Source: Thermoplasmata archaeon (GTDB lineage: Archaea; Thermoplasmatota; E2; DHVEG-1). From it: DNA of 33,089 nt. The stretch is taken from positions 1-33,089 of the forward strand of contig JAHWGK010000005.1 in the NCBI GenBank assembly GCA_020054495.1, read 5' to 3'. Positions 7,832 to 31,327 of the stretch are shown one piece after another. A program made the translations under genes and the position numbers. The notes below the pieces were generated by a model. The model saw only the letters and a list, made by a program, of their open reading frames with translations. It did not search any database and was not told the DNA's origin. Every line of letters starts with the position of its first letter. Within the stretch, counting starts at the first letter, position 1.

Positions 7832-7843
7832 AAGATGATAGTA

Positions 7844-8284
7844 ATGGATTATCAAGAGGCTGAAGATAAAATCTGGGAGATTGTTTCAAATTCATCAAAT
7901 GTTTTAGAAGATGTTGTAGTTTTTCTTTTTAAAAATTTTGATCATTACAGTTGGGTAAGTATTTACCTTGTTGAAGGTAATGATCTTGTTTTAGGTCCTT
8001 GGAAGGGTCCAATTGCAACAGAGCATACTAGGATATCGATTGGTCAGGGTATTTGCGGTTCTGCAGCAGCATCTGGTAAAACCGAGGTTATTTCTGATGT
8101 AAATGCTGATAGTAGGTATCTATCTTGTTTTATTTCTACTAAATCCGAGATTGTTGTTCCAATAAAAAAAGATAAGAAAATTATTGGTGAAATAGACATT
8201 GATTCGGATGTTAAAGATGCTTTTAAAGAAGAAGATACAGTTTTTTTAGAAAAAATTGCAGATATGCTTCATAAGCATATCTAG
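7844..8284 (+). CDS. GAF-domain protein, free methionine-R-sulfoxide reductase-like
   Basis: This small stand-alone GAF-domain protein has 146 residues. The segment IGQGICGSAAASGKTEVISDV followed by SRYLSC and KSEIVVPI is the signature of the fRMsr family, which reduces free methionine-(R)-sulfoxide and uses cysteines equivalent to Cys84, Cys94 and Cys118 of E. coli. Here the ICGS and YLSC cysteines are kept, but the Cys84 position (PACVRI in E. coli) reads EHTRI. Reduction could therefore use only two cysteines, or the protein may be a ligand-binding GAF relative. It starts just after endonuclease Q, implying an operon. ATG codons exist at 7835 and 7844; the second is chosen because GATGAT lies four bases before it. 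A run of seven T follows the stop. Confidence 0.8.
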   Translation: MDYQEAEDKIWEIVSNSSNVLEDVVVFLFKNFDHYSWVSIYLVEGNDLVLGPWKGPIATEHTRISIGQGICGSAAASGKTEVISDVNADSRYLSCFISTKSEIVVPIKKDKKIIGEIDIDSDVKDAFKEEDTVFLEKIADMLHKHI

Positions 8285-8288
8285 CAAA

Positions 8289-8295
8289 TTTTTTT
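8289..8295 (+). terminator. T-rich terminator after endonuclease Q/GAF operon
   Basis: Seven consecutive T begin four bases after the stop codon of the GAF gene. Archaeal transcription ends at such T-runs without a required hairpin. A weak 5-base inverted repeat, AGACC/GGTCT, lies 23 bases further on and may be chance. Confidence 0.45.
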
Positions 8296-8383
8296 CAGTA
8301 CTCAAGATCTTCATCACAGACCCAAAGGTCTCAGAAAGGGTTCGTTCATCACTGGTTATTACAATACCTCTACTGTGATTTAA

Positions 8384-8683
8384 TATTTTTGTTTATGTTT
8401 CAATTTACGGATTACAAGAATACGGGCATTAACCTATATAATTGGCAAAACAACTGCGAAAGTGAACATTACAACCAATGAAAAAATTAATAGTGTATAT
8501 TTCGGAATTGACGGGTACATTTGACATATCTGTAATGAACCCCCTTATGAATATAAAATTGGAAAAGGGTACTTTGCAACTTTTAGATTAAAAGGTCATC
8601 ATAGGTTAACAGTTTGTGTCACAACAAATACAGGTAAAAGAGCATATGATGAAATGGACATCTACGTTGTTAAATTATTGTGA
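8384..8683 (+). pseudogene. Remnant of a C-terminal Ig-like domain of a surface protein
   Basis: The frame ending at the TGA at 8681-8683 reads as the last domain of a secreted archaeal protein. Recognisable pieces are IIGKTTAKVNITTNEKINSV, YFGIDGY, EPPYEYKIGKGYF and KRAYDEMDIYVVKLL. This follows the pattern of bacterial/archaeal Ig-like domains (VEFYIDG..., PPYEW..., HTIKVVAYD..., DEMDVWIF). The frame is broken by an in-frame TGA at 8522-8524, no start codon with a ribosome binding site precedes it, and the frame is closed upstream at 8381. It is best read as a decayed 3' end of a lost gene on the plus strand. The assignment rests on remembered family patterns and is moderately sure. Confidence 0.55.
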
Positions 8684-8717
8684 TCCTACCAAAATATGCT
8701 AGATATTGTTCTAATAT

Positions 8718-14500: not shown

Positions 14501-17500
14501 GGATGGTCTGAGGGTAGTGTTAAAATCTTTTTAACCAAACCTGAAAACATTTCATCATTTACTGCGACTTTAAACGGTGCAACCCAAATTGATCTTACTT
14601 GGACTGATGAATTAAGGGGAGATGGAGCATATATAGAATACGCTAAAAATGCACCTCCAAGTCCTTGGAATGAAGGTGATGGAACACCTGTAGATGCTGA
14701 TGGAAATGTTACATCGTTGTTTGCCCATGCAGGTTTAGATCCTGGAACACACTATTATTACAAAGCTTGGGCGTATGCTACTGATGGTAGTTGGACAAGT
14801 AGTGGAAACCAAAGTTCTCCACGCGGTAATCCAATGACTGCTGATGACACAACAACTGGAATGCCAACAGTGGCTACAAATGATACTACTGGAATTGAAG
14901 AAACTAATGCAACACTTGAAGGATGGCTACAATCAAATGGTACTTTAGATTCATATTGTTATTTCTTATGGGGAACCCAAAATCCACCGACTGATAATAA
15001 TGTATCTCAAGGTATAATTGGTAATGGTGTAAGTTTCAGTTATGATACAAGTGGTACAGGGCCTTTGGCAAAAGCAACGCTTTATTATGTTGATACAAAA
15101 GCAAATAACTCAGGTGGATGGGATGAATCTGGAGGTGTAAAAGCATTTCTTACAAAACCAGATCCGCCATCTAATCTTTTTATTCAAACAAATACTTCAT
15201 CTGTGATTTATTTAACTTGGAGTACTGGAACAGGTTATAATACAACTTATATTGAAAGAAATGCTAGTGGTGAAACATCTTGGGCATTGGGTGAGGGAAC
15301 AATGATTTATAATGGAACGGCTACTCAATATGAAGATACGGGCCTTACAGAAGGTGTAAATTATTATTACCAAGCCTGGACTTTCGCAAACTGGACTAAT
15401 GGCACTCAAACATGGCATCAATATTCGGATAATAACGAGAGTGATAGTAATACAACTAACAATATTCCAACTATCTCTAATGAAGATCCTACAAACGGAA
15501 GTACAGGTGAGAGTGTTCCAAGAGAATTGAGTATAACTGTGAATGATGCCGAGGGAGAGCCTATGACAATAACCTGGTATAGCAATAGCAGTGGTCAATG
15601 GCTAGCTTTTGCCACTAATGTAACTGGTGCAGATGGTAATGGGACCTATTATCAGACAAATGATAACTTCAGTAATTACTCTAACACATACTATTGGAAT
15701 GTAAGTGTAACTGACAGTAAAGATGCAAACCTGTCTGATACATTTCACTTTTCAACTGAAACTCTAGTCACCTCAGTAGATGCTATTACTCCTTATATAG
15801 TAACAGCGTCACCTAAAACCACTACTGCAAATGGAGATTCAGCTTTAGATGAAGTTAGATTGTATTATAGATGGTCTAATGATAATCAAACTTGGGATTC
15901 TTGGGATACTTTAACCTATGATGATTTCGAAGGTGGGTTTGGTAGCTATACTGATGGTGGAGGAGACTGTTCTCTCTATACAGGTGGTACATATGCTCAT
16001 CAAGGTAGTAATGCTGCAGACATCCAATCTGGTAACGGAGATGCTTCTTCGTTTTATCATACATCTGGAATAGATGTTGATACAACAGGATATGAATTTA
16101 TAAAAGTTGATTTTTGGTACTATGCTGTAGGTATGGAATCCGGTGAAGATTTCTATTTAGAGTATTATGATGGAGGTGGCTGGCAGCTTATATCAATATA
16201 TGAATCTGGTGCAGATTTTTCAAACGGTCAGTTTTATCATGAAATTGTTTGGATTAATGAATCAACCTATACATTTCCCTCCAATATGCAAATTAAATTC
16301 AGGTGCGCTGCTGATCAAACCAATGATGATGTTTACATAGATGAAATATACGTAAACGCTACTACTCAGAATACTTTTGGAAATGGTATAAACTGGACAA
16401 TATGGAGTGATGCAACTAATCCTGATATTAATTATCCATGGAGTTGGGACTTCAATTTCCCAAATGGTTCTGGTTATTATGAGTTTTATAGCATTGGAAA
16501 CAAATCAGGGTCTGGTGATGAATCTGCACCAGGCAGTGCTGATGCAAGTTGTCGATTAAACTATATACCTATCATTAGCAATGAGGTTCCGTCAAATCAG
16601 AGTACAAATATTCAACTACTGCCACAACTGAATATAACAGTAAATGATATGGAAAATGAGACCATGAATATCACTTGGTATAGTAACAGCAGTGGTTCAT
16701 GGCAGATATTTGGAACAAATAATTCAGTTAATAATGGTACTTACTATCAAACTAACGCCAATTTCAGTGACCCCGGTAAAACATATTGGTGGAACATATC
16801 TGTTTATGACGGGATTCATACAAACACAACAACATATTATTTTAAATTAAGTTATGAACCTGTATTTGGTAATCCCGGACCAAGTAATCAAAGTACTGGG
16901 CAATATACAACACCAGTTTGTAATGTAACAGTTTCAGATCAAGATGGAAGCACTGTTACTGTACGATTTTTAGAAAATACAACCGGACCATGGATTTTGC
17001 AGCAAATAAATGGTAGTGTCGATGTGACAACTCCTGCAAACGTTGTATGGGACAACTACAATAACGCATCACAAGATTTTACAACGTACTGGTGGAAAGT
17101 TAACGTTACTGATGGAAAGGGGAATTTCATAGAAGAAATATATAATTTTAGAACTGCTAACGTTACAATAGAAGCCACTCCAGCACGATGGGATCAAGGA
17201 TTATTATCTATGGGTGGATCCAATGAAACAAGCGGCTTTTATTTCAATCTTACAAATCAAGGAGATGCTCCTTTATTCATACAAATAAATGCAACTAATG
17301 CTACAAATTCAACAACTGGTGCTTTATGGCGACTTAATGCAACACCGGATTTTGATAATTTTACTTTACAATACAATAAGAGTGGTGTTGGCACCTGGAC
17401 CAATATTAACCTCACTTACGATACTTTTGTTACCAGTCTTGCTGTTGGTTCTTGGCAAACTTTTGATTTGAAACTATTTATGGCTCCTAAGGCAACCTAT

Positions 17501-17548
17501 GGCCACCCGCTTACTGTAACTATTACATTTAGATCGGTTGCAGCATAA
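11528..17548 (+). CDS. Giant secreted multi-domain surface protein (FnIII/Ig-like repeats), 2006 aa
   Basis: Exact function is unknown; this is a probable cell-surface adhesin or structural glycoprotein. About 73 mostly basic residues precede a hydrophobic segment at 74-95, an unusually long N-region that may act as a signal anchor. Next come an Asn/Ser/Asp-rich linker, an Ig-like domain at about 177-268, two unassigned beta domains (298-465, 466-610) and a series of FnIII-like units from about 617. Repeats with PTNGSTG and GYYEFYS motifs follow, one split by a MAM-like beta domain (about residues 1464-1615). The C-terminal domain at 1877-2006 ends TITFRSVAA and matches that of the 4053-residue protein. 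N-glycosylation sequons are very dense. The TTG start is forced by a stop codon (TAG) directly before it, and ATGGGGACC provides the ribosome binding site. Confidence 0.9.
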   Translation: MFSKKPKNWIRKHKKNTLNNLDYRNIAKKKTASIDNIDELVDSILAKVKINSFEKYANVKTVIRIGKRLSAKKLLSIALSFTLLFAVIASASSLVDPDLMGASADAGGGSIGDSLSSNSNISEHNLSDDVLDNSTFSNNQNGTDVDGNESVINESIHPVDDVNGNDTSNKSIVPSRLNLSLQSDKDVYTVNETVFVEGSVSYNDLLVNASVSLLIIGPGIHLSEVLDTTNKEFSYEFVPTAIGNYSVHGNVLFENESAEKIIVFNVIDLPFNDSDDDPSDDQKIPDVVDDAGIHGTPFTVVEAPDNSLGPSSFKVINMDYFWDYFDRYSGWYLDAWDANNGSWFDVTENLNIIRDRSVDNQFEKVSLEFTAPMTADYRLTYIIDRPVKEFIDLSDQYEYQLIFSVGNDEEYSTFFNFSDIASLPNVLIKYGIDKINGENKFWFSVQRNNILAGTNVILDPTFGNEATSTNSRDGDDVPGGYFQMGPVGGTADSITGFFSTAGGANAGRAAIYDSGGNLLTNGFTAENSAVQDGWETFTYITGPTLQAGAWYYLVAFTDDAKSDLRYALSGGNGLYVDTGESYPTFPDPYAATQIDGDALVSIYCTYTEWDDDSPTPDPMTWSTEPYNVSSSSITMIATTAADATPPIEYYFNETTGSSGGSDSGWQQSTTYSDDGLSENTQYGYEVKARDSNATTNEGKYSTPMSYEYTSIDPATNAELTFTNGTTWINATVVQPPNPTSGWTASNFSWTTGGVVYSDWQNGTYYHNRSGLSENTEYGCQVQFRNGDGDACGFNPTEKTNYTRCIAPADGEFSLDSKGITWINMSVLDVDNNPTAGSTAAYFECVTGGASDSGWITAISGGRYYYNATGLTADTTYGFRVKYRNAESVETTYTIEKQDTTDSPIAPTVTTNATTAVEATNATLHGWLQDNSGVDTTCYFLLNDTNDFGSPIFNLSKGVIANGVEFENDTAGETTLTPGKLYYFKAIANNSAGWSEGSVKIFLTKPENISSFTATLNGATQIDLTWTDELRGDGAYIEYAKNAPPSPWNEGDGTPVDADGNVTSLFAHAGLDPGTHYYYKAWAYATDGSWTSSGNQSSPRGNPMTADDTTTGMPTVATNDTTGIEETNATLEGWLQSNGTLDSYCYFLWGTQNPPTDNNVSQGIIGNGVSFSYDTSGTGPLAKATLYYVDTKANNSGGWDESGGVKAFLTKPDPPSNLFIQTNTSSVIYLTWSTGTGYNTTYIERNASGETSWALGEGTMIYNGTATQYEDTGLTEGVNYYYQAWTFANWTNGTQTWHQYSDNNESDSNTTNNIPTISNEDPTNGSTGESVPRELSITVNDAEGEPMTITWYSNSSGQWLAFATNVTGADGNGTYYQTNDNFSNYSNTYYWNVSVTDSKDANLSDTFHFSTETLVTSVDAITPYIVTASPKTTTANGDSALDEVRLYYRWSNDNQTWDSWDTLTYDDFEGGFGSYTDGGGDCSLYTGGTYAHQGSNAADIQSGNGDASSFYHTSGIDVDTTGYEFIKVDFWYYAVGMESGEDFYLEYYDGGGWQLISIYESGADFSNGQFYHEIVWINESTYTFPSNMQIKFRCAADQTNDDVYIDEIYVNATTQNTFGNGINWTIWSDATNPDINYPWSWDFNFPNGSGYYEFYSIGNKSGSGDESAPGSADASCRLNYIPIISNEVPSNQSTNIQLLPQLNITVNDMENETMNITWYSNSSGSWQIFGTNNSVNNGTYYQTNANFSDPGKTYWWNISVYDGIHTNTTTYYFKLSYEPVFGNPGPSNQSTGQYTTPVCNVTVSDQDGSTVTVRFLENTTGPWILQQINGSVDVTTPANVVWDNYNNASQDFTTYWWKVNVTDGKGNFIEEIYNFRTANVTIEATPARWDQGLLSMGGSNETSGFYFNLTNQGDAPLFIQINATNATNSTTGALWRLNATPDFDNFTLQYNKSGVGTWTNINLTYDTFVTSLAVGSWQTFDLKLFMAPKATYGHPLTVTITFRSVAA
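15918..16370 (+). other. MAM-like beta-sandwich inserted within a host repeat domain
   Basis: Within the 2006-residue protein, a repeat begins TSVDAITPY and runs to LYYRWSNDNQTWDSW. It is then interrupted by about 150 residues starting DDFEGGFGSYTDGGG and ending NDDVYIDEIYVNAT. The host resumes with NWTIWSDATNPD and PWSWDFNFPNGSGYYEFYS. The inserted part has the order of a MAM/jelly-roll carbohydrate-binding fold (YEFIKVDFWYYAVGMESGED, then IKFRCAADQTNDDVYIDEI). Boundaries are by eye and may be off by about ten residues. Confidence 0.5.
17158..17545 (+). other. Shared C-terminal domain, copy in the 2006-residue protein
   Basis: Residues 1877-2006 begin VTIEATPARWDQG, contain FYFNLTNQGDAPLFIQINAT, NINLTYDTFVTSLAVGSWQT and end VTITFRSVAA. 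The domain aligns along its length with the last 129 residues of the 4053-residue protein. It has no membrane helix and no recognised sorting motif. Its fixed terminal place in both giants suggests attachment, assembly or secretion. Confidence 0.75.
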
Positions 17549-17617: not shown

Positions 17618-17835
17618 TTAATCGTCAAATTAAAAGTTGATTTACTAGAAAAAGTAAATATAATATTTATATACTAGTTTTTGATATGTAAATTGAGCGG
17701 ATGGGTAAATTTACTAAGGGGGTGGGCAATTACTTTGATGTTGTTTGTTAATCGTCAAATTAAAAGTTGATTTATTAGATAAACAAAATGTAACATTTAT
17801 AAACTAATTTTAAATACATACATTGAACGGGATGG
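17618..17835 (+). repeat. Tandem 88-base direct repeat carrying two TATA boxes
   Basis: Copy 1 is 17618-17705 and copy 2 is 17748-17835, offset by 130 bases. The first 27 bases are identical and the rest diverges, but both copies keep a TTTATA box (17666-17672 and 17796-17802) and end in a matching TTGARCGG...ATGG. The second copy supplies the probable promoter and start region of the zinc-ribbon gene. The first drives at most a 16-codon frame (17701-17751). The identical block upstream of the TATA box looks like a conserved regulatory site. Confidence 0.8.
17701..17751 (+). other. 16-codon reading frame behind the first promoter copy
   Basis: ATG at 17701 opens a frame coding MGKFTKGVGNYFDVVC and closing with TAA inside the second repeat copy. 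Its ATG aligns with the ATG of the zinc-ribbon gene in copy 2. It could be a leader peptide or the decayed start of a former gene. Nothing else supports expression. Confidence 0.2.
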
Positions 17836-18467
17836 TTGGCTCACGACGAGGAGTGGATGGAAAATTATTGCATTTTTGCCCACATTGTCACAGTAAAAAA
17901 ATTGTAAAAAACGGCCATCATTATGGAGGGAAACTCCAATTTTTATGTAATAGTTGTCACAAACATTTTACAGAAGAAGTTGCAAAAGGATATCCAACTA
18001 CAAAAATCCCGTTCCCTGTTATTTCTTATTTATTGTACTTCCGTCGAAAACTTCCAGAGTTTTCAAATATGAGGAAGTACAGACGGTTTGTCAACCATTG
18101 GTTAAGATATCTTCAAGTTAATAACCAGGATATATCCAGACAAACCATTCACCATTGGAATAATGAGTTTGACCATCTCCTAGATAGAGTAATCACATTT
18201 GAAGAATCTCGTGATTACTGCAAAAATCGAATAAAACAACTTGCAAAAGCACGTCCACCACAACAAACCATCCCGTATCAACGTGCTTTGGAAGTTATGG
18301 TAAGAAAGTTTGGGAGAGCCGCCGTAGTTCGATTGATCAAAACAGATGAAATTTTCTTCAAAGAACTTGTGAATGTGATTAGCAGACACGGCGTGTTTAA
18401 TTGGGAATTTCTAGAAGGAAATTATGAAAGGAGGAGCGGAAGCCAGCGTCCCTTAGCTGCAGGGTAA
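17832..18467 (+). CDS. Transposase-like zinc-ribbon/HTH protein without a DDE domain
   Basis: This 211-residue DNA-binding-type protein begins with a zinc ribbon, CPHCHSKKIVKNGHH then FLCNSCHKHF, as at the N-terminus of IS1/IS6-like transposases (InsA-type finger). A helix-turn-helix-like segment, DISRQTIHHWNNEF, follows near residue 100. The C-terminal half is charged, and no DDE catalytic residues are recognised. No terminal inverted repeats of an insertion sequence were seen around it. It ends 17 bases before the 4053-residue surface protein gene, so they are probably co-transcribed. A duplicated promoter precedes it. The ATG at 17832 is preferred over a TTG at 17823 because both promoter copies keep an ATG there; the TATA spacing implies a very short leader. 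It may be a domesticated regulator or a truncated transposase. Confidence 0.7.
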   Translation: MVGSRRGVDGKLLHFCPHCHSKKIVKNGHHYGGKLQFLCNSCHKHFTEEVAKGYPTTKIPFPVISYLLYFRRKLPEFSNMRKYRRFVNHWLRYLQVNNQDISRQTIHHWNNEFDHLLDRVITFEESRDYCKNRIKQLAKARPPQQTIPYQRALEVMVRKFGRAAVVRLIKTDEIFFKELVNVISRHGVFNWEFLEGNYERRSGSQRPLAAG

Positions 18468-18484: not shown

Positions 18485-21400
18485 ATGTTAGATGAAGATA
18501 AGAATCGAAAATTGAACACAATTCGTGAGGAGATTGATAGCCTTAGCTATAAGTCTCGACGTTGTGTTTATTCTAAGAAATCTTCTTCTAATGTTGATTA
18601 TCTTGTTGACCGAGCTTTTGCAAAGCAAAATGGAAAACAAATAATCCGAAACAAGATCAAAAAGAAACTACCTTGGAAGCAAACTCTTGCAATATTAGTA
18701 ACTCTTATTGTGGTTCTTGCAGCAATTCCATATGTTCTACCTCCATTGTATGGTGATTTTGGTACTGATGTTTCAATTGTTTTGGATCCTGATGAAGTTC
18801 ATGTGAATGAGAGTGTGCTAATTAATGTGTCAATACCATCGTTTTATAATATTACTAATGTTAGTGCTGATATGGCGGGTGTTGAAACAATTAACTTGAG
18901 TTTATTTGATAATTCAACTAGTTTACATCTTTGGCAGGCTGTTTGGTTAGTCCATGATCTCCTTCCAGATGAGTATATTATGACTATTACTGCATCTGAT
19001 GGATTAAATATGACTTATTCTGCTGGTACAAGGTTGAGTGTTGTTTCTGATGATATACATAGTGACAATCAATCTTCTGAACCTGATGACAATGATACTT
19101 TACCACCTGGTTATAATGAGACAATTCCCCCTGATGTTGATGATGATCATGATGAAGATAATAATTCAATTATACCTGCAGGATTAGATATTTCAATGTT
19201 GATTGAAAATCATTCTTATTACATTAATGAAACAGTATTGATTACTGGCGAAGTTACATATAATTATACATTTATCAATACAGCAATTAATCTCTCATTT
19301 ATTGGTCCTTCATTCAATAAAACAGCTGTAATTAATGCTACAAATGGAACATTTTCATACAAAATTAAATTCTTCAATATTGGCATTTATAAAGTCCAGG
19401 GACAAATATCGTATAACAATGAAACTAAAGATGTTGAAAGAATGTTTTATATTGACAAGCCAACTGAGGACATATCGATTCAAACTAAAATAGATCAGAG
19501 TATAAATAAGGGCAAACCTGTTTTATTGTTCTTCTACACAAATGGCTGTAATCCCTGTCAAGAGGAAGAAAAAGTTCTAATTGAATTGATAAATATTTAT
19601 GCTGAGGAAATTGATTTCATTTATGTCCATGAAACTGGAAATCAGAGCATAATCGAAGATTTTGATGTGAAAAACTATCCGACTATGTTTCTGATTATTG
19701 ATAAAGTCCATGAAGGTTATCTCTATAAATATCTTGAAGGAATTGTTAACAAAACTGAATTAATGAGTTATATTGATCAAGCACTTGATAAAAATGAGAG
19801 TAATAATTTTGCAGGTTGGTGGCGGGGCGAAATTGTAAGTCAGAGTCCTTTAGAATTACCTTCTGAGATAGATTCTATAATATCAAATAATGAACCAATC
19901 CAAATCATAATAAAATGTAAGGATGGTGAAAATCTTACAGAAAAAGTAACTTACTTGAAATCAATTGGTTTTGTTCCAACTGCAGAAATTGAATCATTAG
20001 GATTTATTGCCGGAGTTATTGATAAAGTAGTTTATGATAAAATCAAATTTGATAGTGGTTTAGACGATGTTTATACTGATGATGGATTTACTGTTTTACT
20101 TAATGAAAGCTTACCATTAGTAAGATATAATGAGGCTGCTCAAAGCTTTAATGTAACTGGTAGTGGTAAAAAGATATGTATTATTGATACAGGTGTTGAT
20201 TCATCAATAGTTAACTATAGTTATGGTTATGATTTTGTTCATGATGATAACATACCTGATGATGAACATGGTCATGGAACAAGGGTTGCCGCAGTCATTG
20301 CAAGTATTGCACCAGATTCAGAGCTAGTTGTTGCAAAGGTAATTGATGGAAGTGGAGTTGGATATGAGTCTGACGTTCTTGAGGCACTTGAGTGGTGTAT
20401 AGAGCAAAGCCCTGATGTAATTAGTTTCAGTATTGGAACTGAAGATAGTTGCGATGGCTTCTGTAATACAAACTTTGTAGCAAATATGAGTAATGATGCA
20501 TTCGATTCAGGAATCTTTGTAGTTGCTGCTTCTGGTAATGATGGTAGTAAAAGTCTTAAATCTCCAGCATGTGGCTCAAATGTATTTTCAGTAGGTGCAA
20601 CAGATGATTATGACAATATTGCATCATTTTCAAATGTAAATCCAACACTTGACCTATTTGCTCCAGGTGTTGATATTACAACATTTGCCGGAACTGGTAG
20701 TGGAACGTCATATAGCGCGCCTCATGTTGCAGCTGCGTCTCTTCTTGTTTTGGAGCTGGTTGATCTTAATCCAATTGATTTGAAGTATCGTTTGAGAAGT
20801 ACTGGTGTGCCTGTAGGTTATGTTTATAATGAGAGTTTGAGTCTTGATATTGCTCGTTTAGATGTCTATAATGTTTTGGCTAATAATAAGACGATGGAGC
20901 CATATGATTATAGTTGGTGGTGGCAGGGTATTCTTGGTGATGGGGAGGTTTATGAACCATTAGATGTCGTTAGTCTTCTTCCTGATGCAGAGGGAGATAC
21001 CCAAACGTGGACAATATTTCCAGCAGATAGGGGAGGCCTTCATTGGAATAAGGTTGATGATCCTGTTGGAAGTCCTGACGGTGATAGTACGTATGTTTAT
21101 TCAACTACTGTTCAAAATGAAGAGTTCAATCATACAACTGATGAAAAATTAGAGGGAGCTACAATTTCAGAGGTTAAGGTTGTTGCTAGAATGAAATATG
21201 TGGGTGTGGCAGTCACAGTAAATATTGGATTAAACGTTGGGGGAACACGTTTTCCAGGAGGATCAAATAATGCATTGACTGCTTCTTATGCTTATTATGA
21301 GCAAAAATGGAATCAGAATCCTGCTGATAGTCAAGATTGGGAGAAATCTGATATCGATAGTTTACAAACCAGTCTTAGGTATATGATAGGAATGTTTCCG

Positions 21401-24400
21401 GGTGATGCAGCTAGATGTACTCAGGTTTATCTTAACGTTACCTATACACCGGTAACAAATAATGCACCAACACAATCAAATCCTGGTCCCACTAATGGAA
21501 GCACAGGACAGGATTTAACACCACCATTAAATGTTACTTGTTATGATACTGATGATGATACTATGAATGCTACATGGTGGAGTAATTCATCTGGTAGCTG
21601 GGTACAATTTGCATCAAACACAAGTATTGCATCAAGTTACACAAATATAATACAAACAAACAGTAACTTCAGTAACTACAGCACAACATACTACTGGAGC
21701 GTAAACCTATCAGATGGAGAAGGTGGCTGGGATAATGAAACTTATCATTTCACAACAGAAAATATAACTACATCAGTTGATACTATACAACCATATAACC
21801 TTTCCTCCTCTACAAAAACCCTTACTGCTACTTGCTCATCAAGTTTGGATAATGTTACACTTTGGTATCGATATTCTTCTGACAATTTAACTTGGGGAGG
21901 TGAAGATCCAGATAATGAAATTGGAGTTCTTTATGCTGAACAGAATACCGAACAATCTCAACAAGGAGCCACAGAGAAAACATTAGCAGCAATAGATTCT
22001 GCTGATTTTGTAGTTGGAGATGATTACATAATTATTGCCTCCTGTCATGTAAGTGCTAGTACTTCATCAACAAGAGCTGAAACATATCTTAAACATGGAT
22101 CTTCGATATTTACAGTTACTCAAGAAGAACAAGAACCACCTTTTGATAGTACAACAGCTTGGATTTATTCAACAGTGATAAAATGGACAGCAATCAGTGG
22201 AGAAAGTATTGAGTTAACAGGACAAGAAGCAGATGATACAGCAGGATATGCGTATTGGGATGAAATTTCACTTATGGTGATTCCATTGAAAAATTTAACA
22301 GAAGGAATTGATTATTGGTATGATTCTGAAACTACCGCTGATAATAATATGGATGATACTTGGGCTAATAATGAAGGAGCTAGTATTACATTTACTCCAG
22401 ACGGGACAAGTAATTATCTTGCAATGGCTTCAAGCAGGATTGAGGCAGATACAACTGAAAATGATTTAATGGCAATGAGAATTGCTGAAGGAGGTAGTGG
22501 TCTCGGTCAAGTTGAAAGAGATTGTGAAGATTCAAATGATGAGTCAGTATTAACATACATACGAATTTTAGAAGCTCCATCAGCAAGTTCAACTGAATAT
22601 ACTGTTCAATTCCAAGGTGACAGTGTTCATGATAAACTATCTAGTCAATTATTTATTCTGAATCTTAGTGCATTCAAAAATAGTTCATATAACCAAACTT
22701 CAGCTACTAATGAAATAAGTAGTTCCTGGGAAGAATTAGGAAATGCTAGTATGAATTTAACATATGCCGGTAATGTAATTGTGATCTGGGCGGACTTATA
22801 TGAATACACACAAGACAAAACGACCCTCCCTCCTAATGAAGCATGGATTGGAGCAATAAGATACCGTGCAAATTATGGAAATAGTAGTTCATCTTCCATA
22901 AGTAAACTAACAGTTACTAATCGCCTCTGTAGCTGGAATAGATATGACTATACTGAAGGAGCGGACAGAGGATGTGGAATAATGTTTGACCGAATTAACA
23001 TAGAAGATACAAGTGAGCATTGGTATACATTAGATGGCGATGGAGAAAGTGTGTTTGTTGTTCATTCCGATTATGGAACTAGAATAATAGCTTTTAGCGA
23101 GTCAACGATAAATGAAGGATGGAAGATTTGGAATAATGCAAACAATCCAGACACTGCAAGTCCTTGGAGTTGGGACTTTAACTTCCCCGATGGATCTGGT
23201 TATTATGAATTCTATAGTATGGGAAACAAAACGGGTTCACCTAATGAAACTGCCCCAAGAAGTGCTAATGCAATTTGTTATTTAGGTGATAATACTAAAC
23301 CAACTGTTGACTTTGAATTACCAACTCCTGCAAATAATACTGAATTAGCTAACACCTGGGCAGATGTGAACGTATCAGTTTCAGATACAGGTGGTAATGT
23401 CTCAAGCTTTATTGATTGGGATGGTAGCCTAAGAGGATATTGGTCAATGGAATATCTAAATTCAACTGGAGTATTTGATAATTCGACGTATGATAACTTT
23501 GCAACTTATAATGGAGATGATTTTGATGAAAACAACCAAACATCTGCAATATATGGAGATGGTTTAGAGTTTGATGGAGATGATGATTATCTATTAGTAA
23601 GTGATCATAGTAGCCTTGATATAACAGATGAAATAACAATTGAAGCTTGGGCAAAGGATCCACCATTGATACCATCAAAAGATAAAGATACTAAGGATTC
23701 ATTTGAAGAAATTGAAAGTATAAAATCTCAATTAGATAAAAACAAAGAAATTATTAATTACAATATCAGTGATATAACCTTATATAAAACAAAAAAAGAT
23801 ACTTTCTATCTTTACAATCTTTTAGAAACATTTGATCTTCTTAAAAAATTCTACTTTAATTATTTAGGAATAGAAAACATTGAATCAGATAATAACTATG
23901 GTAATAATTCTAAATTATCTCTTGATAAATCAATTAAGCAGTTTGATGAATATCTTATTGAATGCTGTAACTCTAAAACTGAAAAGGATAAAACAAGAGC
24001 AATTTTAAAGTTCAAAGAAGGTATTACACCTCAGAAATTTACGAAAATTACATCTGATTTAGAAAATTCTGGTTTCATAAAAACAATGGAGATTTTCTCA
24101 GAGAGGATTGTTGCAGGTTATATTAATAACACAATTTTAGAGAAAATAAACATTATAGATGATATTGAAGAGGTTTATACTGATAGAGAGTTTGAAATTT
24201 TATTAACTGAAAGTATGCCATTAATAGGAGTAGAAAAAACCTCCTTAGAATATAACCTCACTGGTAAGGGTAAAAAGATTTGTATACTGGATACGGGTGT
24301 AGATTCCACTGTTGTTAATTATAGTAGTGGATACGACTTTGTATATAATGATAATATTTCTGATGATAATTACGGTCATGGAACTATAGTTGCAAGTATT

Positions 24401-27400
24401 ATTGATAGAATTGCCCCTGATGCAGAGCTTATTGTAGCAAAGGTCATAGGTGATGATGGAACTGGGTATGAGTCAGATGTATTGGAAGGATTACAATGGT
24501 GTATCAACCAAGATCCTGATGTAATAAGTTTCAGTATTGGTGCAGGTAGTTACGATGGTTTCTGTGATAATAACCTTATTGCCCAATTATGTGATCAAGC
24601 ATTCACTAGAGGAATCTTTATTGTAGCTGCCGCTGGAAGTGATGGTAACAGAAATTTAAGAGCTCCAGCATGTGGATCAAATGTATTTTCGGTAGGAGCC
24701 ACAGATGATCAAGACAATATTGCATCATTTTCTTCTGTCAATCCAACAATTGATATGTTTGCTCCTGGAGTAAATATAGTAACAAAAGCAGGCTCAGGAT
24801 CTGGAACCTCCTTATCTGCCCCACATGTTGCAGCATCTTCATTATTGTTATTAGAAAAGGAAGATTTGGATGTACAGGATTTAAAATACAGGCTAAAAAC
24901 AACTGGTAAACCAATTCTTTATCAATACAATGATACTCTTGATATATACATACCTCGTTTAGATATTTACAACTCGTTGATTAACAATAAGACGATGGAA
25001 CCATATGATTACTCATGGTATAACTATGTTGAAAGTGGAGATAAAAATGAAGAATATATTGTTTTAACCACAGATATATTCTATTCTGATAATAATGATA
25101 CGTGTCTATATGAAGCCAGTCCAGATGCTAATTTTGGTAATGATAGTTTTATGTATGTTGATTCTAGATCAACTCAGAATAATCGTATGATGGTTCAGTT
25201 TGATTTATTATCTGAAGTACCATATGGATGCGATATCATTGATGCAAAGTTAGAAATCTATTACTATGGCAAGAGTATTTTCAGTCCTGTAGGTCGAACA
25301 TATAGATGTCACAGAATTTTCGGTTCTTGGGAAGAATGGTATCCTACTTGGAATAATTGGGTCGGTAAATTTTGGGGATCAGGTTATAGCACAGATACGG
25401 TTCCAGGTAGTTATGGATATATGGAATGGGATGTAACAGATCATGTTCAAGGTATTGTTGATCAAAATTCTAGTTATTATAATAATGGATGGCTGATAAA
25501 AGATAGCGATGAAACAACAGCTGTTAACAGATGGGCAAAATTCTATTCAAGTGAGCATGGAAGCAATAAACCAAAACTTACTGTACAATGGAGTTGTAAT
25601 TCGCCAACAGTTACAAACAACGGTGGAGCAACGAGCGTTGAAGAAACCACTGCTACATTAAGAGGAGAAGTAACAGAAACTGGAGGATGTGACCCTACAG
25701 CCATTATTTACTATGGAGATAATGAAGGTTCAACTAATCCTTTAAGCTGGGATGAAAATGTAAACGCTGGAGCAGAATCTGGCTCATTTAGTGAAGGTGT
25801 TACTGGACTTACTTCAGCAGATCTTTATTACTATAGATGCTATGCATCTAATTCAGGTGGTGGCGATTGGGCAGACAGTGCCGAGAAATTCTTAACAAAG
25901 CCTAATGCACCGTCTACTCTGACTGCTTCATCGCAGACTAAAAATTGTATAACATACACATGGAATGCTACGTCTAAAGGAACAGGCGCAACCCTTAATA
26001 CAAAAGTAATGGCAAACATATCAGGATTTCCATCTGATCATGAAGATGGAACAGAGTGGTATAATAGTACGAGTGAAAGTGATACTCAATGTATTCTTCT
26101 AATGGGACAGATATACTATGTGAGAGCATGGTCCTGGGCCACCGAAGGAGGATATAACAAGTGGAGTGACGGATATGATAGTGAAATAATGTATACAAAA
26201 CCAGGTGATCCAACTTCTTTAACTGCGGACAATCCAACTATCTCAACTATAAATCTAAGCTGGACAATAGAAGGAAGCAATGGTGGGGATAGAGTAGTTA
26301 TAAGGAATAGTACATCAGGTTATCCCTCAGATCCAACAGGTGGTTACGAGACATATAATAGTACTGATATGTCTGGTCCTCATACTGATACGGGTCTTGA
26401 GCCTGGTACAACATATTACTACAGCTTATGGATATATGATAGTGAATCAGGATATTTCAGTGACGTCAAGGAAACAGCTTACAACACAACCAATTTAGCA
26501 TTGCCAACAGTCGTTACGCTTTCAGCTATAGGTGTAGAAGAAACAAATGCAACCATTAGAGCCGAGATAACTTCAACAGGAGGAAAAGAGCCATATCGTT
26601 GGATAGTATGGAATACCTCCGGTTCACCGTTTACAGATCCATCTAAAAACGAAAGCTTTGTCCCAGATGGAATAGGGATATATAGTAAAGATATCACTGG
26701 TCTTTCAAATGGAACTCAATATCACTTCAGAGGATTAGCTAACAATTCAGTTGGATGGAGTAATGGTACTAATATTACATTTTGGACGAAACCTCAACCA
26801 CCCAGTGATTTTGGAGCTATAGCAATAAATAACACCCGGATAAATCTCACATGGACTATTGGAAACGGCGCTGTGAATACAACAATTATCCAAAAAGCAG
26901 GGAGCTCTCCGACTAGTAGATCAGATTATGATAAAATTGTATATAACGGAACTGGGACAAGTTGCAATGATACTTTATTAGATGGGTTTACAACATATTA
27001 TTATAGAGCTTGGTCAACTACTAATCCTGATTCAGATCCACCAGATCCAACGGCAAGTGCTACCACTTGGTCACCAAAAACAATACTTGCTAAAGGGGAT
27101 GCTTATGAGCTTTTCATCAATGGCACAACATTGTATGGGTATCTTAATGGTACGTTGATTGTAAATACATCTATAGATGAGGAGTGGCATCATGTCGCTT
27201 TCACCTATAATGGCTCTGTTGCATGTCTCTATGTCGATGGAAACCTCAATGATACAAATAGTAGTTATAATGAGCCGATTAAAACAAATAATAACAACCT
27301 TGTTTTAGGTCAAGATTTCCAGGGTACTCTTGATGAGGTTCGTCTTTGGAGTCGGGAGCTTAGCTGGGAAGAGGTCAACGCTTCTTATGATGCTTCTAGT

Positions 27401-30400
27401 TATTATTCCCATAATTTCACTGGATTATCATGTAATAATTATTCATATTATGCTCATGCCATTGACGAATTGGGTAATGAAAACGTTACTGAGACAAGAT
27501 ATTATAACTGTACAAATAATTGCCCTGTGTCACCTTCAAATGGTGCCCCGACATTTAACAATCCAGATGATGGAGATAACTGCTATGCACAGATTGGGAA
27601 ATGGTATAATGTTACTGTTAAATACACTGATAACAATGGATACAGTGATTTTGATTATGTCGAACTCCGGCTGTTGAATCAGAGTGATACAACCCGAGCT
27701 ATTTTTAGATATACAGAATCAACTAATACGTTTTCTCAACAGGATAGTCTTAAAAAGTTCGAGTTCAACACATCATCGTCCTTTGCTGAAGAACTAGATA
27801 ATAACATAACTATTTACTGGCTTTTCAAACCACATTGGAATGCAGAAAATGAAACCGATTATGACATACAATGTTATTGTATCGATGGCACTGGTTTAAG
27901 TGATAATGATACAACAGCTGACCAGTTTGATGTCATTACAAACCTACTTGTATCTAGCATCGAATGTAACGATACAACAGAGGACAGTGGTGTCGATCGC
28001 ATAAGTTTAAACATACAAACACAGGTAAACCTTAGCATACGTTATGCTAACGATCCTGGTTCAAGTACACCTTCTAGCTCTTATCCTCCTGATGATGAAT
28101 TCACAAGTGTTTCACTTTATAACAGTTCAGATTATAACTGGGGGACTAATAATTCTATTTCAAATGGTAATGGAACAATCTGCTTCACACCAGATGAAAT
28201 CGGAATTGATAACTACACTCTCTACATAAACATGAAAGACGGTGATTACAGTGACGGAGAAAAAATTAATCCATATGAGACAATTATCGTTGATCGAGTG
28301 AACGTTACCAGCATTGCTGTATCTGAACATATCTATTATGATGGTTCACGTTATTGGGATAAAAATACTCCAATAAATCTTACATATACAGCAAAACTCG
28401 ATTATGATGGAACAAACTTTACTACTGTCAACGGAGAATTAAACGCAGGATATCTAGGGGACTCTACTGCATGGGGAGGAACAACTAGTTTGAACATATC
28501 TGTTAATGACTCCTCATCAGGTAACATTGTAATTAGAGATGACGCAACCGCAGGCTCAGTCTACGATGGTGGTGATTATGGTATAACAGCTCTTACAGTA
28601 ACCGCGAGTAAACCAGATATCGGTTGGGATTGGGAAGCACCCTCTATTAGTGTAACTGGTGAAAACGAAAGCAGCGAGTATCTTTACGCGGGTTATGGCA
28701 CAGGGTCGCAAGGAGTTTATGGATCAGGCATGGGAGGTACCCTTAAATCATATAATGTGAGTGGTACTGCATCTGACAACAGTGGCTCTGGTATGACATC
28801 TGTCATAGATGATACAAGCTTTGGAGATAATCCTTCAAACGATGGAATTACCACAAACTGGTGGTTTATCTACCAGATCGATCAGAACGATAATGGTGAT
28901 GTAATTGTCAATTACACCGCGGAGGACAATGTGGGTAATACCAATACTGTTAACTATACTTTCTACGAGGACAATGATGATCCAACACTTTCTGATGCTA
29001 TGTTTGATTACAGTGAGTCTGGCGATACAGATGAAGTCTACGGTAACACTTCTAGTAACATCTTCTACTTCTCCAATTCATTTGATAGTTATGCAAATAT
29101 ATACATCAATGCAACAGGTAGTGACACTGGAGAAGCAGGTGTTCGAGGGGTTGATTTCAGCTTGTTTGGCGCTGATGATCCATCTGAGGATACCAACAGC
29201 CCGTACACTGGCAATTACACGATAAACGATGATGATTCATCTGGTTCAATAACCGTTATTATCTATGATAATGTTAACAACTCAGCTTCAGATACAATAA
29301 CTTGTACAGGGGATGATACATCGCCAGATACAACGATAGATAACATCCCAGATACTATAACTGATTTAGATATTATATCTGGTAGCGCCACAGATAATAT
29401 ACGATTAGCTCGACAATATTTTTATATTAAAAATACAACGACTAATAAGTATTATAATGAACTAGGCTGGACTGATAGTGAAACCTGGCTTGACGCTGAT
29501 GCTAATGACAGCTTTGATTCAGGAGCTGAAAACTGGAATTACAATACTTCCCTTATATCCTGGGCTAACAGTCATAGCTATGAAATAAAAGCAAAGGCTC
29601 AGGATATCGTTGGGAATAATGATTCATCACCAGCAGCTGATACATTCACTATTACTATTGCAAGTACTCCAACAGTAACAACCAACGCTTCTACTGGTGT
29701 TGAGGAAATGAATGCAACCTTATGGGGTTGGCTACAAAACAATGGAAGCGCTGATACAACCTGTGGATTCAGACATGGCACCTCTTCTGGAAGCTACGAT
29801 ACTAATATTACCAACGGTATCGTCCAAAACAATACTGAATTCTCAAACGACACAACAGGACTTACACCCGGCCAGATTTATTACTATCAAGCCTGGGCGA
29901 ACAACAGTGGAGGATTTGCAAATGGCTCAGAATTAACATTCCTCACAAAACCAAATGTTACAGCCAATTTCAACGCGGCAACATACAACTCAACACAGAT
30001 CAACTTAAGTTGGAATAAAGGAGATGGGGCAAATAATACCTATATCGAAAGAAACCAAACAGGAGCAACTGTTTGGGCACGCGGAGAAGGAATATTAATC
30101 TACAATGGAACAGGAACATATTATGAAGATACTGGACTTACACCCGAGACAACATACTATTACCAGGCCTGGAGCTATGCAAACTGGACCTATGATTCAA
30201 CCACTCTTCATAAATGGTCAGATAACAACGCAAGTGTAAGCAATACAACTCAAGAGACTAACACCACTCTAGAGATTACCCCTGCTTCGTGGGATATAGG
30301 AACTACTACAATCGGAAGTTATAATTACTCTACATCAGACTTTTATTTCAACCTAACAAACGAAGGAAATGTCGTTCTTAACATACAGATTAAGGCGAGT

Positions 30401-30646
30401 AATGCAACGAATGCTACAACTGGTGCTAATTGGACTCTTACTTCCACACCCGGCTTTGATAACTACAGTCTGCTGTATAATAAGAGTAATAGTTGGAATA
30501 ATATCAACCTTACATATGATACATTTGTTACCGGTCTTGGTGTTGGTAGTTGGCAGACATTTGATTTGAACATATTTATGGCAACGACATCATCAAAAAG
30601 TGATCCATTATCTGTTACTATTACATTTAGATCTGTAATTTCCTAG
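18485..30646 (+). CDS. Giant secreted protein with thioredoxin-like and two subtilisin (S8) domains, 4053 aa
   Basis: This is a probable surface-attached protease/adhesin. A long basic N-region precedes a hydrophobic segment near residues 65-90. Then come Ig-like domains (97-180, 233-325), a thioredoxin-like domain (about 325-435, Cys355-Asn-Pro-Cys358, cis-Pro399), a propeptide-like part and S8 domain 1 (Asp568, His597, Asn685, Ser742). A beta domain, an Ig-like repeat holding a 400-residue insert, and the first LamG half (1641-1724) follow. The inserted block (1725-2850) contains S8 domain 2, a DNRLRE-like domain (about 2190-2370) and FnIII units. After it come the second LamG half (to about 2968), Ig-like and FnIII modules, and a C-terminal domain (3925-4053) shared with the 2006-residue protein. 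The frame is unbroken over 12 kb. The ATG has GTGTGATA upstream. N-glycosylation sequons abound. Confidence 0.92.
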   Translation: MLDEDKNRKLNTIREEIDSLSYKSRRCVYSKKSSSNVDYLVDRAFAKQNGKQIIRNKIKKKLPWKQTLAILVTLIVVLAAIPYVLPPLYGDFGTDVSIVLDPDEVHVNESVLINVSIPSFYNITNVSADMAGVETINLSLFDNSTSLHLWQAVWLVHDLLPDEYIMTITASDGLNMTYSAGTRLSVVSDDIHSDNQSSEPDDNDTLPPGYNETIPPDVDDDHDEDNNSIIPAGLDISMLIENHSYYINETVLITGEVTYNYTFINTAINLSFIGPSFNKTAVINATNGTFSYKIKFFNIGIYKVQGQISYNNETKDVERMFYIDKPTEDISIQTKIDQSINKGKPVLLFFYTNGCNPCQEEEKVLIELINIYAEEIDFIYVHETGNQSIIEDFDVKNYPTMFLIIDKVHEGYLYKYLEGIVNKTELMSYIDQALDKNESNNFAGWWRGEIVSQSPLELPSEIDSIISNNEPIQIIIKCKDGENLTEKVTYLKSIGFVPTAEIESLGFIAGVIDKVVYDKIKFDSGLDDVYTDDGFTVLLNESLPLVRYNEAAQSFNVTGSGKKICIIDTGVDSSIVNYSYGYDFVHDDNIPDDEHGHGTRVAAVIASIAPDSELVVAKVIDGSGVGYESDVLEALEWCIEQSPDVISFSIGTEDSCDGFCNTNFVANMSNDAFDSGIFVVAASGNDGSKSLKSPACGSNVFSVGATDDYDNIASFSNVNPTLDLFAPGVDITTFAGTGSGTSYSAPHVAAASLLVLELVDLNPIDLKYRLRSTGVPVGYVYNESLSLDIARLDVYNVLANNKTMEPYDYSWWWQGILGDGEVYEPLDVVSLLPDAEGDTQTWTIFPADRGGLHWNKVDDPVGSPDGDSTYVYSTTVQNEEFNHTTDEKLEGATISEVKVVARMKYVGVAVTVNIGLNVGGTRFPGGSNNALTASYAYYEQKWNQNPADSQDWEKSDIDSLQTSLRYMIGMFPGDAARCTQVYLNVTYTPVTNNAPTQSNPGPTNGSTGQDLTPPLNVTCYDTDDDTMNATWWSNSSGSWVQFASNTSIASSYTNIIQTNSNFSNYSTTYYWSVNLSDGEGGWDNETYHFTTENITTSVDTIQPYNLSSSTKTLTATCSSSLDNVTLWYRYSSDNLTWGGEDPDNEIGVLYAEQNTEQSQQGATEKTLAAIDSADFVVGDDYIIIASCHVSASTSSTRAETYLKHGSSIFTVTQEEQEPPFDSTTAWIYSTVIKWTAISGESIELTGQEADDTAGYAYWDEISLMVIPLKNLTEGIDYWYDSETTADNNMDDTWANNEGASITFTPDGTSNYLAMASSRIEADTTENDLMAMRIAEGGSGLGQVERDCEDSNDESVLTYIRILEAPSASSTEYTVQFQGDSVHDKLSSQLFILNLSAFKNSSYNQTSATNEISSSWEELGNASMNLTYAGNVIVIWADLYEYTQDKTTLPPNEAWIGAIRYRANYGNSSSSSISKLTVTNRLCSWNRYDYTEGADRGCGIMFDRINIEDTSEHWYTLDGDGESVFVVHSDYGTRIIAFSESTINEGWKIWNNANNPDTASPWSWDFNFPDGSGYYEFYSMGNKTGSPNETAPRSANAICYLGDNTKPTVDFELPTPANNTELANTWADVNVSVSDTGGNVSSFIDWDGSLRGYWSMEYLNSTGVFDNSTYDNFATYNGDDFDENNQTSAIYGDGLEFDGDDDYLLVSDHSSLDITDEITIEAWAKDPPLIPSKDKDTKDSFEEIESIKSQLDKNKEIINYNISDITLYKTKKDTFYLYNLLETFDLLKKFYFNYLGIENIESDNNYGNNSKLSLDKSIKQFDEYLIECCNSKTEKDKTRAILKFKEGITPQKFTKITSDLENSGFIKTMEIFSERIVAGYINNTILEKINIIDDIEEVYTDREFEILLTESMPLIGVEKTSLEYNLTGKGKKICILDTGVDSTVVNYSSGYDFVYNDNISDDNYGHGTIVASIIDRIAPDAELIVAKVIGDDGTGYESDVLEGLQWCINQDPDVISFSIGAGSYDGFCDNNLIAQLCDQAFTRGIFIVAAAGSDGNRNLRAPACGSNVFSVGATDDQDNIASFSSVNPTIDMFAPGVNIVTKAGSGSGTSLSAPHVAASSLLLLEKEDLDVQDLKYRLKTTGKPILYQYNDTLDIYIPRLDIYNSLINNKTMEPYDYSWYNYVESGDKNEEYIVLTTDIFYSDNNDTCLYEASPDANFGNDSFMYVDSRSTQNNRMMVQFDLLSEVPYGCDIIDAKLEIYYYGKSIFSPVGRTYRCHRIFGSWEEWYPTWNNWVGKFWGSGYSTDTVPGSYGYMEWDVTDHVQGIVDQNSSYYNNGWLIKDSDETTAVNRWAKFYSSEHGSNKPKLTVQWSCNSPTVTNNGGATSVEETTATLRGEVTETGGCDPTAIIYYGDNEGSTNPLSWDENVNAGAESGSFSEGVTGLTSADLYYYRCYASNSGGGDWADSAEKFLTKPNAPSTLTASSQTKNCITYTWNATSKGTGATLNTKVMANISGFPSDHEDGTEWYNSTSESDTQCILLMGQIYYVRAWSWATEGGYNKWSDGYDSEIMYTKPGDPTSLTADNPTISTINLSWTIEGSNGGDRVVIRNSTSGYPSDPTGGYETYNSTDMSGPHTDTGLEPGTTYYYSLWIYDSESGYFSDVKETAYNTTNLALPTVVTLSAIGVEETNATIRAEITSTGGKEPYRWIVWNTSGSPFTDPSKNESFVPDGIGIYSKDITGLSNGTQYHFRGLANNSVGWSNGTNITFWTKPQPPSDFGAIAINNTRINLTWTIGNGAVNTTIIQKAGSSPTSRSDYDKIVYNGTGTSCNDTLLDGFTTYYYRAWSTTNPDSDPPDPTASATTWSPKTILAKGDAYELFINGTTLYGYLNGTLIVNTSIDEEWHHVAFTYNGSVACLYVDGNLNDTNSSYNEPIKTNNNNLVLGQDFQGTLDEVRLWSRELSWEEVNASYDASSYYSHNFTGLSCNNYSYYAHAIDELGNENVTETRYYNCTNNCPVSPSNGAPTFNNPDDGDNCYAQIGKWYNVTVKYTDNNGYSDFDYVELRLLNQSDTTRAIFRYTESTNTFSQQDSLKKFEFNTSSSFAEELDNNITIYWLFKPHWNAENETDYDIQCYCIDGTGLSDNDTTADQFDVITNLLVSSIECNDTTEDSGVDRISLNIQTQVNLSIRYANDPGSSTPSSSYPPDDEFTSVSLYNSSDYNWGTNNSISNGNGTICFTPDEIGIDNYTLYINMKDGDYSDGEKINPYETIIVDRVNVTSIAVSEHIYYDGSRYWDKNTPINLTYTAKLDYDGTNFTTVNGELNAGYLGDSTAWGGTTSLNISVNDSSSGNIVIRDDATAGSVYDGGDYGITALTVTASKPDIGWDWEAPSISVTGENESSEYLYAGYGTGSQGVYGSGMGGTLKSYNVSGTASDNSGSGMTSVIDDTSFGDNPSNDGITTNWWFIYQIDQNDNGDVIVNYTAEDNVGNTNTVNYTFYEDNDDPTLSDAMFDYSESGDTDEVYGNTSSNIFYFSNSFDSYANIYINATGSDTGEAGVRGVDFSLFGADDPSEDTNSPYTGNYTINDDDSSGSITVIIYDNVNNSASDTITCTGDDTSPDTTIDNIPDTITDLDIISGSATDNIRLARQYFYIKNTTTNKYYNELGWTDSETWLDADANDSFDSGAENWNYNTSLISWANSHSYEIKAKAQDIVGNNDSSPAADTFTITIASTPTVTTNASTGVEEMNATLWGWLQNNGSADTTCGFRHGTSSGSYDTNITNGIVQNNTEFSNDTTGLTPGQIYYYQAWANNSGGFANGSELTFLTKPNVTANFNAATYNSTQINLSWNKGDGANNTYIERNQTGATVWARGEGILIYNGTGTYYEDTGLTPETTYYYQAWSYANWTYDSTTLHKWSDNNASVSNTTQETNTTLEITPASWDIGTTTIGSYNYSTSDFYFNLTNEGNVVLNIQIKASNATNATTGANWTLTSTPGFDNYSLLYNKSNSWNNINLTYDTFVTGLGVGSWQTFDLNIFMATTSSKSDPLSVTITFRSVIS
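19440..19790 (+). other. Thioredoxin-like domain with CNPC motif
   Basis: Residues about 325-435 of the 4053-residue protein read GKPVLLFFYTNGCNPCQEEE, then DFDVKNYPTMFLI. That is the thioredoxin order of strand, CxxC at Cys355/Cys358 and cis-proline at Pro399. The domain lies after the membrane segment, so it acts outside the cell. It could form or reshuffle the disulfides of the neighbouring S8 domains, which contain several cysteines. Confidence 0.75.
20080..20810 (+). other. Subtilisin-family (S8) protease domain 1
   Basis: The complete catalytic set is visible: IIDTGVDS with Asp568, HGHGTRVAA with His597, AASGNDG with oxyanion Asn685, and GSGTSYSAPHVAA with Ser742. About 80 residues before it resemble an I9-type propeptide (IQIIIKCKDGENLTEKVTYL... 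DDVYTDDGFTVLLNESLP). It is therefore expected to be an active serine protease, possibly self-processing. Confidence 0.9.
21905..23105 (+). other. 400-residue beta domain inserted in a host Ig-like repeat
   Basis: The host repeat begins TSVDTIQPY and runs to LWYRYSSDNLTWGG. It is interrupted at residue about 1141 and resumes near 1541 with GWKIWNNANNPD, then PWSWDFNFPDGSGYYEFYS. The inserted part is not recognised. It contains two similar-looking halves, each with a phrase of the type ...YAYWDEISLMVIPL and ...QLFILNLSAF, suggesting a duplicated beta-sandwich. The break falls at the same place in the host repeat as the MAM-like insert of the 2006-residue paralogue. Confidence 0.5.
23407..23656 (+). 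other. LamG (concanavalin-like) domain, N-terminal half
   Basis: Residues 1641-1724 carry LRGYWSMEYLNSTGVFDNST, then GDGLEFDGDDDYLLVSDHSS and DEITIEAWAK. This is the standard opening of a LamG/concanavalin-like jelly roll. The domain stops abruptly at AWAK-DPP, and its continuation (KTILAKGDAYELFI) is found 1126 codons later. Confidence 0.8.
23657..23665 (+). repeat. 9-base direct repeat at left border of inserted block
   Basis: GATCCACCA here is identical to 27035-27043 at the right border. Both are read in the same codon phase as Asp-Pro-Pro. It may be a target duplication or the microhomology used in recombination. Confidence 0.6.
24180..24910 (+). other. Subtilisin-family (S8) protease domain 2, altered oxyanion residue
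   Basis: This domain is paralogous to S8 domain 1 of the same protein. The catalytic triad is kept: ILDTGVDS with Asp1936, YGHGTIVAS with His1965, and GSGTSLSAPHVAA with Ser2109. The oxyanion-hole asparagine is replaced: AAAGSDGN has Ser2052 where domain 1 has Asn685 in AASGNDGS. A propeptide-like stretch (RAILKFKEGITPQKFTKI... EEVYTDREFEILL) precedes it. Reduced or altered activity is possible. Confidence 0.85.
25046..25596 (+). other. DNRLRE-like beta domain
   Basis: Residues about 2188-2371 show LYEASPDANFGNDSFMYVDS, MMVQFDLLSEVPYGCDIIDA, KLEIYYYG, a Trp-rich PTWNNW, EWDVTDHVQGIVD, then NGWLIKD and AKFYSSEHGSNKPKLTVQW. This is the order of the DNRLRE/CBM-like domain of secreted proteins, thought to bind polymers or stabilise extracellular chains. 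It directly follows S8 domain 2. Confidence 0.7.
27035..27043 (+). repeat. 9-base direct repeat at right border of inserted block
   Basis: This is the second copy of GATCCACCA. It is followed by GATCCAACGG, and then the LamG domain resumes within about twelve codons. Confidence 0.6.
27044..27390 (+). other. LamG domain, C-terminal half
   Basis: Residues about 2854-2968 read KTILAKGDAYELFINGTTLY, then DEEWHHVAFTYNGSVACLYV, LVLGQDFQGTLDEVRLWSRE. These are the second-half strands of a LamG domain, completing the half at 23407-23656. Confidence 0.8.
30259..30643 (+). other. Shared C-terminal domain, copy in the 4053-residue protein
   Basis: Residues 3925-4053 begin TLEITPASWDIG, contain FYFNLTNEGNVVLNIQIKAS, NINLTYDTFVTGLGVGSWQT and end VTITFRSVIS. 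It closely matches the C-terminus of the 2006-residue protein (17158-17545). Confidence 0.75.
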
Positions 30647-31238: not shown

Positions 31239-31327
31239 CAGGTTAGCTTTAAATATAATCATTGACAAAATGTATCGTGCTATCACTTAACATCATATGG
31301 AAAAAAACGAAAACGGAAGGAAACGAG

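Follow-up and report, generated by a model that had tools for sequence, protein, structure and literature searches.

How does one small domain come to have a whole protease between its two halves? The question is raised by a giant gene in the stretch of DNA that we have analyzed (hereafter the window, the first 33089 bases of contig C204 in a Thermoplasmata archaeon draft genome of 2.72 Mb and 248 contigs). The first-pass annotation of this sequence had proposed that an enzyme cassette entered a LamG domain of this gene recently, with a chimeric assembly as the main alternative. What we have found is more general than the insertion into a single gene proposed at first, and we describe here the split domain, its recurrence in other genomes and the variety of sequences that it encloses.

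A LamG domain interrupted by a protease cassette

One LamG, a small domain of carbohydrate-binding type, is truly interrupted by a whole protease cassette (Table 1). When the two halves were joined, they matched Laminin_G_3 (PF13385) with 79.2 bits over profile positions 1-151 of 151 (cut-off 27.6). The C-terminal half by itself covered only positions 74-151, with 67.5 bits, and the N-terminal half by itself gave no PF13385 match in the profile search. The sequence of the domain is broken by 1136 intervening residues and the whole block lies within one open frame, kept over 3.4 kb, so that the in-frame split noticed at first holds. In the same way, the joined LamGs of four proteins matched PF13385 over its whole length or lacked only 1-2 end positions, with scores of 62-83 bits. 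A Pfam scan of the whole window protein did not call this LamG, a miss which shows that domain annotation overlooks split LamGs.

Table 1. Features of the giant gene and of its discontinuous LamG, in window coordinates
Feature	Position	Strand	Basis or remarks
ORF of 4053 aa, predicted surface protein anchored to the membrane near its N-terminus; two subtilases, one discontinuous LamG	18485..30646	+	
Lone hydrophobic N-terminal segment, probable membrane anchor	18680..18742	+	Inferred from translation
Thioredoxin domain	19490..19777	+	Pfam PF00085, E 8.7e-9, residues 336-431
First subtilase with propeptide-like region, not within the split LamG	19901..20920	+	Pfam PF00082; motifs DTGVD, GHGT, GTSYSA
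LamG N-terminal half, last residues 'ITIEAWAKDPP'	23450..23665	+	HMM hits, alignment, profile extension of joined domain
Left GATCCACCA, encoding the conserved DPP border	23657..23665	+	
Insert separating the LamG halves, 1136 aa	23666..27073	+	
Second subtilase with propeptide-like region; catalytic codons Asp 24290, His 24377, Ser 24809	23996..25021	+	Motifs DTGVD, GHGT, GTSLSA
CBM96 (DNRLRE-like) domain	25091..25588	+	Pfam PF24517, E 8.5e-15
FnIII-like units, the last one continuing into the LamG C-terminal half	25613..27073	+	Pfam fn3, Pur_ac_phosph_N; similar to FnIII units further on in the protein
Right GATCCACCA, in the FnIII tail	27035..27043	+	Identical 9 bases in G009
LamG C-terminal half, first residues 'PKTILAKG'	27074..27391	+	PF13385 partial match, HMM hits

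The content of the block agrees with the first description of a subtilisin, a DNRLRE-like domain and FnIII units. The first ~110 residues had no match, and they are followed by the propeptide-like region and the subtilase, by CBM96 (the DNRLRE-like part) and by fn3-type units. Over 343 aa, propeptide-like region included, the inserted subtilase shares 59% identity with the first copy. Both copies retain intact D, H and S motifs, and the inserted one is a putative active protease. In the subtilase tree it joins the five-row set with which the first copy also groups; the order inside this set is not settled by the tree, hence no donor can be named. Besides, the FnIII-like units of the insert resemble those close to the C-terminus of the protein. 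Another ORF of the window (11528-17548, plus strand, 2006 aa) has no Pfam match, and its FnIII-like stretches share ~37% identity with the FnIII units inside the insert.

The borders of the block had been described as identical in-phase repeats 3378 bases apart, and this is correct: the window contains two copies of GATCCACCA and no more, at this spacing and both in codon phase. The repeats had been read as the mark of microhomology or of a target-site-duplicating element that brought the cassette recently into this gene alone, and the fact that two or more copies were found in only 1 of 100 shuffled sequences speaks for such a reading. Against it, the protein contains only two DPP tripeptides, each encoded GAT CCA CCA, and the probability that a given DPP has these codons is about 0.24 at the codon usage of the gene. 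Most relatives do not have the same codons at the left DPP. The right-border 9-mer is kept in the related genome G009 and is part of the tail of the last FnIII unit, about ten residues ahead of the LamG C-terminal half. This position in a tail common to G009, together with the DPP codons, explains the identity and leaves target-site duplication unsupported; the pair appears to be a coincidence of two DPP tripeptides. The related claim that collapsing the repeats restores the LamG stands in part, given that the match is full when the domain is joined at 23450-23665/27074-27391, but about ten FnIII-tail residues ('DPTASATTWS') remain in the loop after the collapse.

Other origins of the block were considered. 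Base composition says nothing on a recent origin, since the GC of the insert (0.349) is close to that of the flanks (0.351 and 0.386) and its GC3 is uneven (0.20 in the protease, 0.41 in CBM96 and FnIII). The window protein gave no match to a Hint family in Pfam, which speaks against an intein as the origin of its insert, and a circular permutation of the LamG is disfavoured, no N-terminal half having been found after the C-terminal one. As for the surroundings, a short ORF (17823-18467, plus strand), which matches an InsA-type zinc ribbon weakly, lies directly upstream of the giant gene and a PKD-domain protein (31262-32782, plus strand) immediately downstream. The adjoining genes for DNA gyrase subunits A and B (122-4507, minus strand) are found in the same window of this archaeal genome.

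The same split in a paralogue and in related genomes

We have examined related genomes, of which those with names are Ca. Thermoplasmatota MAGs from separate projects; all of the evidence comes from draft MAGs. N-terminal halves of the type that ends in DPP were found at eight loci of seven MAGs (the window and contig C248 in the same genome, and G011, G023, G001, G018, G019 and G041). The split follows 'E-[AG]-W-x-[KQM]-DPP', in which W, D, P and P do not vary among the eight loci (six of them in the alignment); this invariance with differing codons fits an old feature of the protein. The paralogue on C248 (3833 aa) is cut at the same position, its halves lying 2679 aa apart in the order DUF2341, LamG N-terminal half ending 'LEGWAKDPPL', rhodanese, thioredoxin, subtilase, FnIII-type modules and LamG C-terminal half 'NKEIISKGQNAYSLEM'. 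In the closest relative, G011, the LamG halves are 69% and 74% identical to those of the window and stand 498 aa apart with unrelated modules between them; no protease was found in this insert, and a subtilase is located upstream of the split LamG. The halves of G023 are separated by 3036 aa that include at least two intact LamGs. Actually, in these three proteins (C248, G011 and G023) N-terminal half, cargo and C-terminal half all lie in a single frame. In G001 the two halves are on different contigs (C159 and C134), both collinear with C248, and in G018, G019 and G041 the N-terminal halves end in DPP with the C-terminal side beyond the available sequence. A subtilase with propeptide-like region is the cargo at 5 of the 8 loci (window, C248, G001, G041 and G023).

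These data bear directly on the two explanations offered at first. A recent insertion limited to this gene is now very improbable: the paralogue and several other genomes, including MAGs of other genera, are split at the same position, and across the right junction the window and a contig of G009 run collinear, at 53% identity over 1061 aa. The first-pass annotation had also called for a homologue with an uninterrupted LamG, and among the related genomes examined no such orthologue was found, the closest relatives being split too. An assembly chimera that joins two related genes could be suspected in a draft MAG of this many contigs, where a single ORF carries two related subtilases. It is even harder to credit than the recent insertion, given that separately assembled MAGs have the same junction with different DNA and cargo, that the frame is intact through the 3.4 kb and that the flanking halves have their orthologue in G011 at the identities given above.

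The relationships among the joined LamGs point in the same direction. The proteins whose joined LamGs come nearest to that of the window are split without exception (G011 71%, the G001 pair 50%, C248 47% and an Aenigmatarchaeota protein 46%), and all rank above any intact LamG. A tree built from the joined LamGs places the window in one group with G011 and the Aenigmatarchaeota protein (100/91) and C248, G001 and G023 in another (100/92); a third type with beta-propeller cargo, described below, is one group in 92% of the bootstrap trees, with modest support (90/68). Given the well-supported branches, a minimum of two changes is needed to account for the split 'giant' type, which appears to be present in at least two lineages. 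Trees built from the N-terminal or the C-terminal halves only both pair the window with G011 and C248 with G001, and the identities between proteins in one half correlate with those in the other (r 0.84, 10 pairs), as expected of one domain inherited as a unit. From the sequences compared, the split architecture appears to be old and recurrent in surface proteins of Thermoplasmatota, neither a recent accident nor an assembly error. The DPP border and the subtilase cargo are common to two LamG lineages, which may reflect either exchange of cargo or repeated insertion.

Several stretches next to these domains deserve a record. In G019 (contig C106, L126:5461-6918) an intein-like stretch, 'CYDEKTQILTLDGWKYF...', comes directly after the LamG N-terminal half and DPP, with weak Pfam matches to Intein_splicing (E 0.05) and Hint_2 (E 0.10). 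Its ends have several further occurrences on contig C133 of the same genome, and in other genomes its middle matches frames full of stops, a sign that the opposite strand may hold a second gene. In G047 (contig C62, L055, ORF 150-8930) a thioredoxin-subtilase protein continues into a tandem array of about eight Hint-like units ('CFPPGT..MADGS...HNTC'), spotted by eye. A conserved module of ~150 aa that belongs to no known family ('IVDKREE..ERT...ISYLV..DGTYDYESTTH') follows the DPP in L051 (C248), L054, L056 and L057; in G007 and G037 the same module stands ahead of a LamG and is not inserted in one.

One loop and its cargoes

A wider survey used HMMs of both halves over 520 ORFs from ~75 loci, which were picked by a match to the N-terminal half, so that its counts show recurrence and not population frequency. 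The halves were adjacent in 52 LamGs and 372 to 2676 aa apart in 24; a further 14 N-terminal halves had no C-terminal half in reach, many of them at contig ends. When we scanned with no fixed cut point, 17 of 18 complementary pairs were cut at model position ~70-85 of 179. The halves of the host are thus complementary and the cargo is independent of them, differing from one relative to the next. Even the Aenigmatarchaeota protein has its LamG cut in the same loop, in this case by 372 aa.

Most of the split pairs belong to one type, with inserted repeats of ~390 or 740-820 aa. They form a pilin-like family in which the LamG is split by one beta-propeller (~390 aa) or by a double-length stretch (740-820 aa), found at L127-L131, L137, L147, L163, L166, L177 and others, often with several genes in a row. 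Both scanned members have the N-terminus of archaeal type IV pilins (Pilin_N). In the member that was modelled the insert is predicted with confidence and resembles beta-propellers such as Photorhabdus lectins; the N-terminal half had no confident prediction. No protease is carried by the inserts of this type.

Whether the halves meet in one fold was approached with an AlphaFold model of the G011 split domain (691 aa), for which the input alignment included intact LamGs. The pLDDT was mostly 67-95 in the N-terminal half, mostly 86-97 in the C-terminal half and mostly below 50 in the insert, a pattern that fits one LamG with the insert looped out. A fold search with this model gave LamG-like lectins over ~130 columns, probably the C-terminal half alone, so that it is no test of the pairing of the halves. 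It is likely, judging from the model, that both halves fold jointly into one LamG beta-sandwich. They could instead be unrelated pieces of LamG, with each half a degenerate or minimal domain in its own right and no fold in common, as the 67 bits of the C-terminal half alone might suggest. We consider this improbable: there is one of each half per protein, complementary and cut at the same model position in ~25 proteins, the N-terminal half provides the profile positions before ~43-74 that the C-terminal half lacks, and the trees and identities of the two halves agree.

The explanation that we favour, and hold to be probable, is that the LamG acts as a clasp, a discontinuous beta-sandwich in a giant surface-anchored protein, one loop of which repeatedly accepts very large cargo. 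The first strands (to 'EAWAKDPP') would pack together with the last ones (from 'PKTILAKG'), while the cargo (subtilase with its propeptide, CBM96 and FnIII spacers) would loop out of a single inter-strand loop. Both ends of the cargo would be held together by the clasp and joined to the anchored chain, and the enzyme would in this way be displayed at the cell surface. The same loop has taken up large cargo in several lineages of Thermoplasmatota, be it proteases, beta-propellers or other modules.

A special form of the clasp could work as a staple. Autocleavage between propeptide and subtilase would sever the chain within the insert, leaving two chains that the LamG sandwich would keep together non-covalently. 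The frequency of propeptide-bearing subtilases as cargo (5 of the 8 DPP-type loci) speaks for this, and so does the membrane anchor ahead of the LamG N-terminal half in the proteins read, as a cut would otherwise free the enzyme. The inserts of the propeller type and of G011, with no protease in them, speak against it, and we regard the staple as unlikely, if conceivable. A broader statement would make the LamG a general cargo socket in Thermoplasmatota and at least one member of Aenigmatarchaeota, with one inter-strand loop that takes in whole enzymes, beta-propellers or multi-domain blocks of several kilobases, with such cargo exchanged between genes and, where the cargo is a self-processing subtilase, a non-covalent staple on the cell surface; we offer it tentatively and give it similarly low odds. 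For the clasp itself, if the halves do fold together, LamG would be a natural scaffold for extreme insertions, which bears on the assembly of giant archaeal surface proteins and on protein engineering.

Comparison with known systems

We found no earlier description of split LamGs in these archaea in the open-access literature. Members of the PF13385 family are continuous; the LamG described here matches the whole length of the family once its halves are joined, but 1136 aa lie between them in the chain. Measured against the subtilases of family S8 (PF00082), both copies in the window protein carry a propeptide-like region as well as the D, H and S motifs, and the second differs in its location within a LamG. 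PAPP-A, which appeared in our fold search, likewise has a LamG and a protease in one secreted protein, but its LG domain (82-324) is continuous and stands ahead of the catalytic domain (PMC9579167). The pilin-like propeller proteins described here have the same loop of the LamG cut and differ from the window protein by their Pilin_N N-terminus, their beta-propeller cargo and their separate LamG lineage.

Discontinuous domain architecture is already known; the size of the inserts and their recurrence are what is unusual here. As in the domain insertions of A1-B-A2 type (PMC13114784), one domain breaks another at a loop within a single chain. Domain insertions are usually small, unlike those in these LamGs: in the survey of such events the median insert has 115 residues, in hosts of 199, and the insert is smaller than the host in 77% of the events (PMC13114784). 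Here the inserts have 372-3036 aa in a host of ~180 aa, that is, 2 to 17 times the host. Besides, the cargo is often multi-domain and recurs at one loop with varied content: in several lineages the same loop of a ~180-residue host accommodates inserts of between 370 and 3000 residues.
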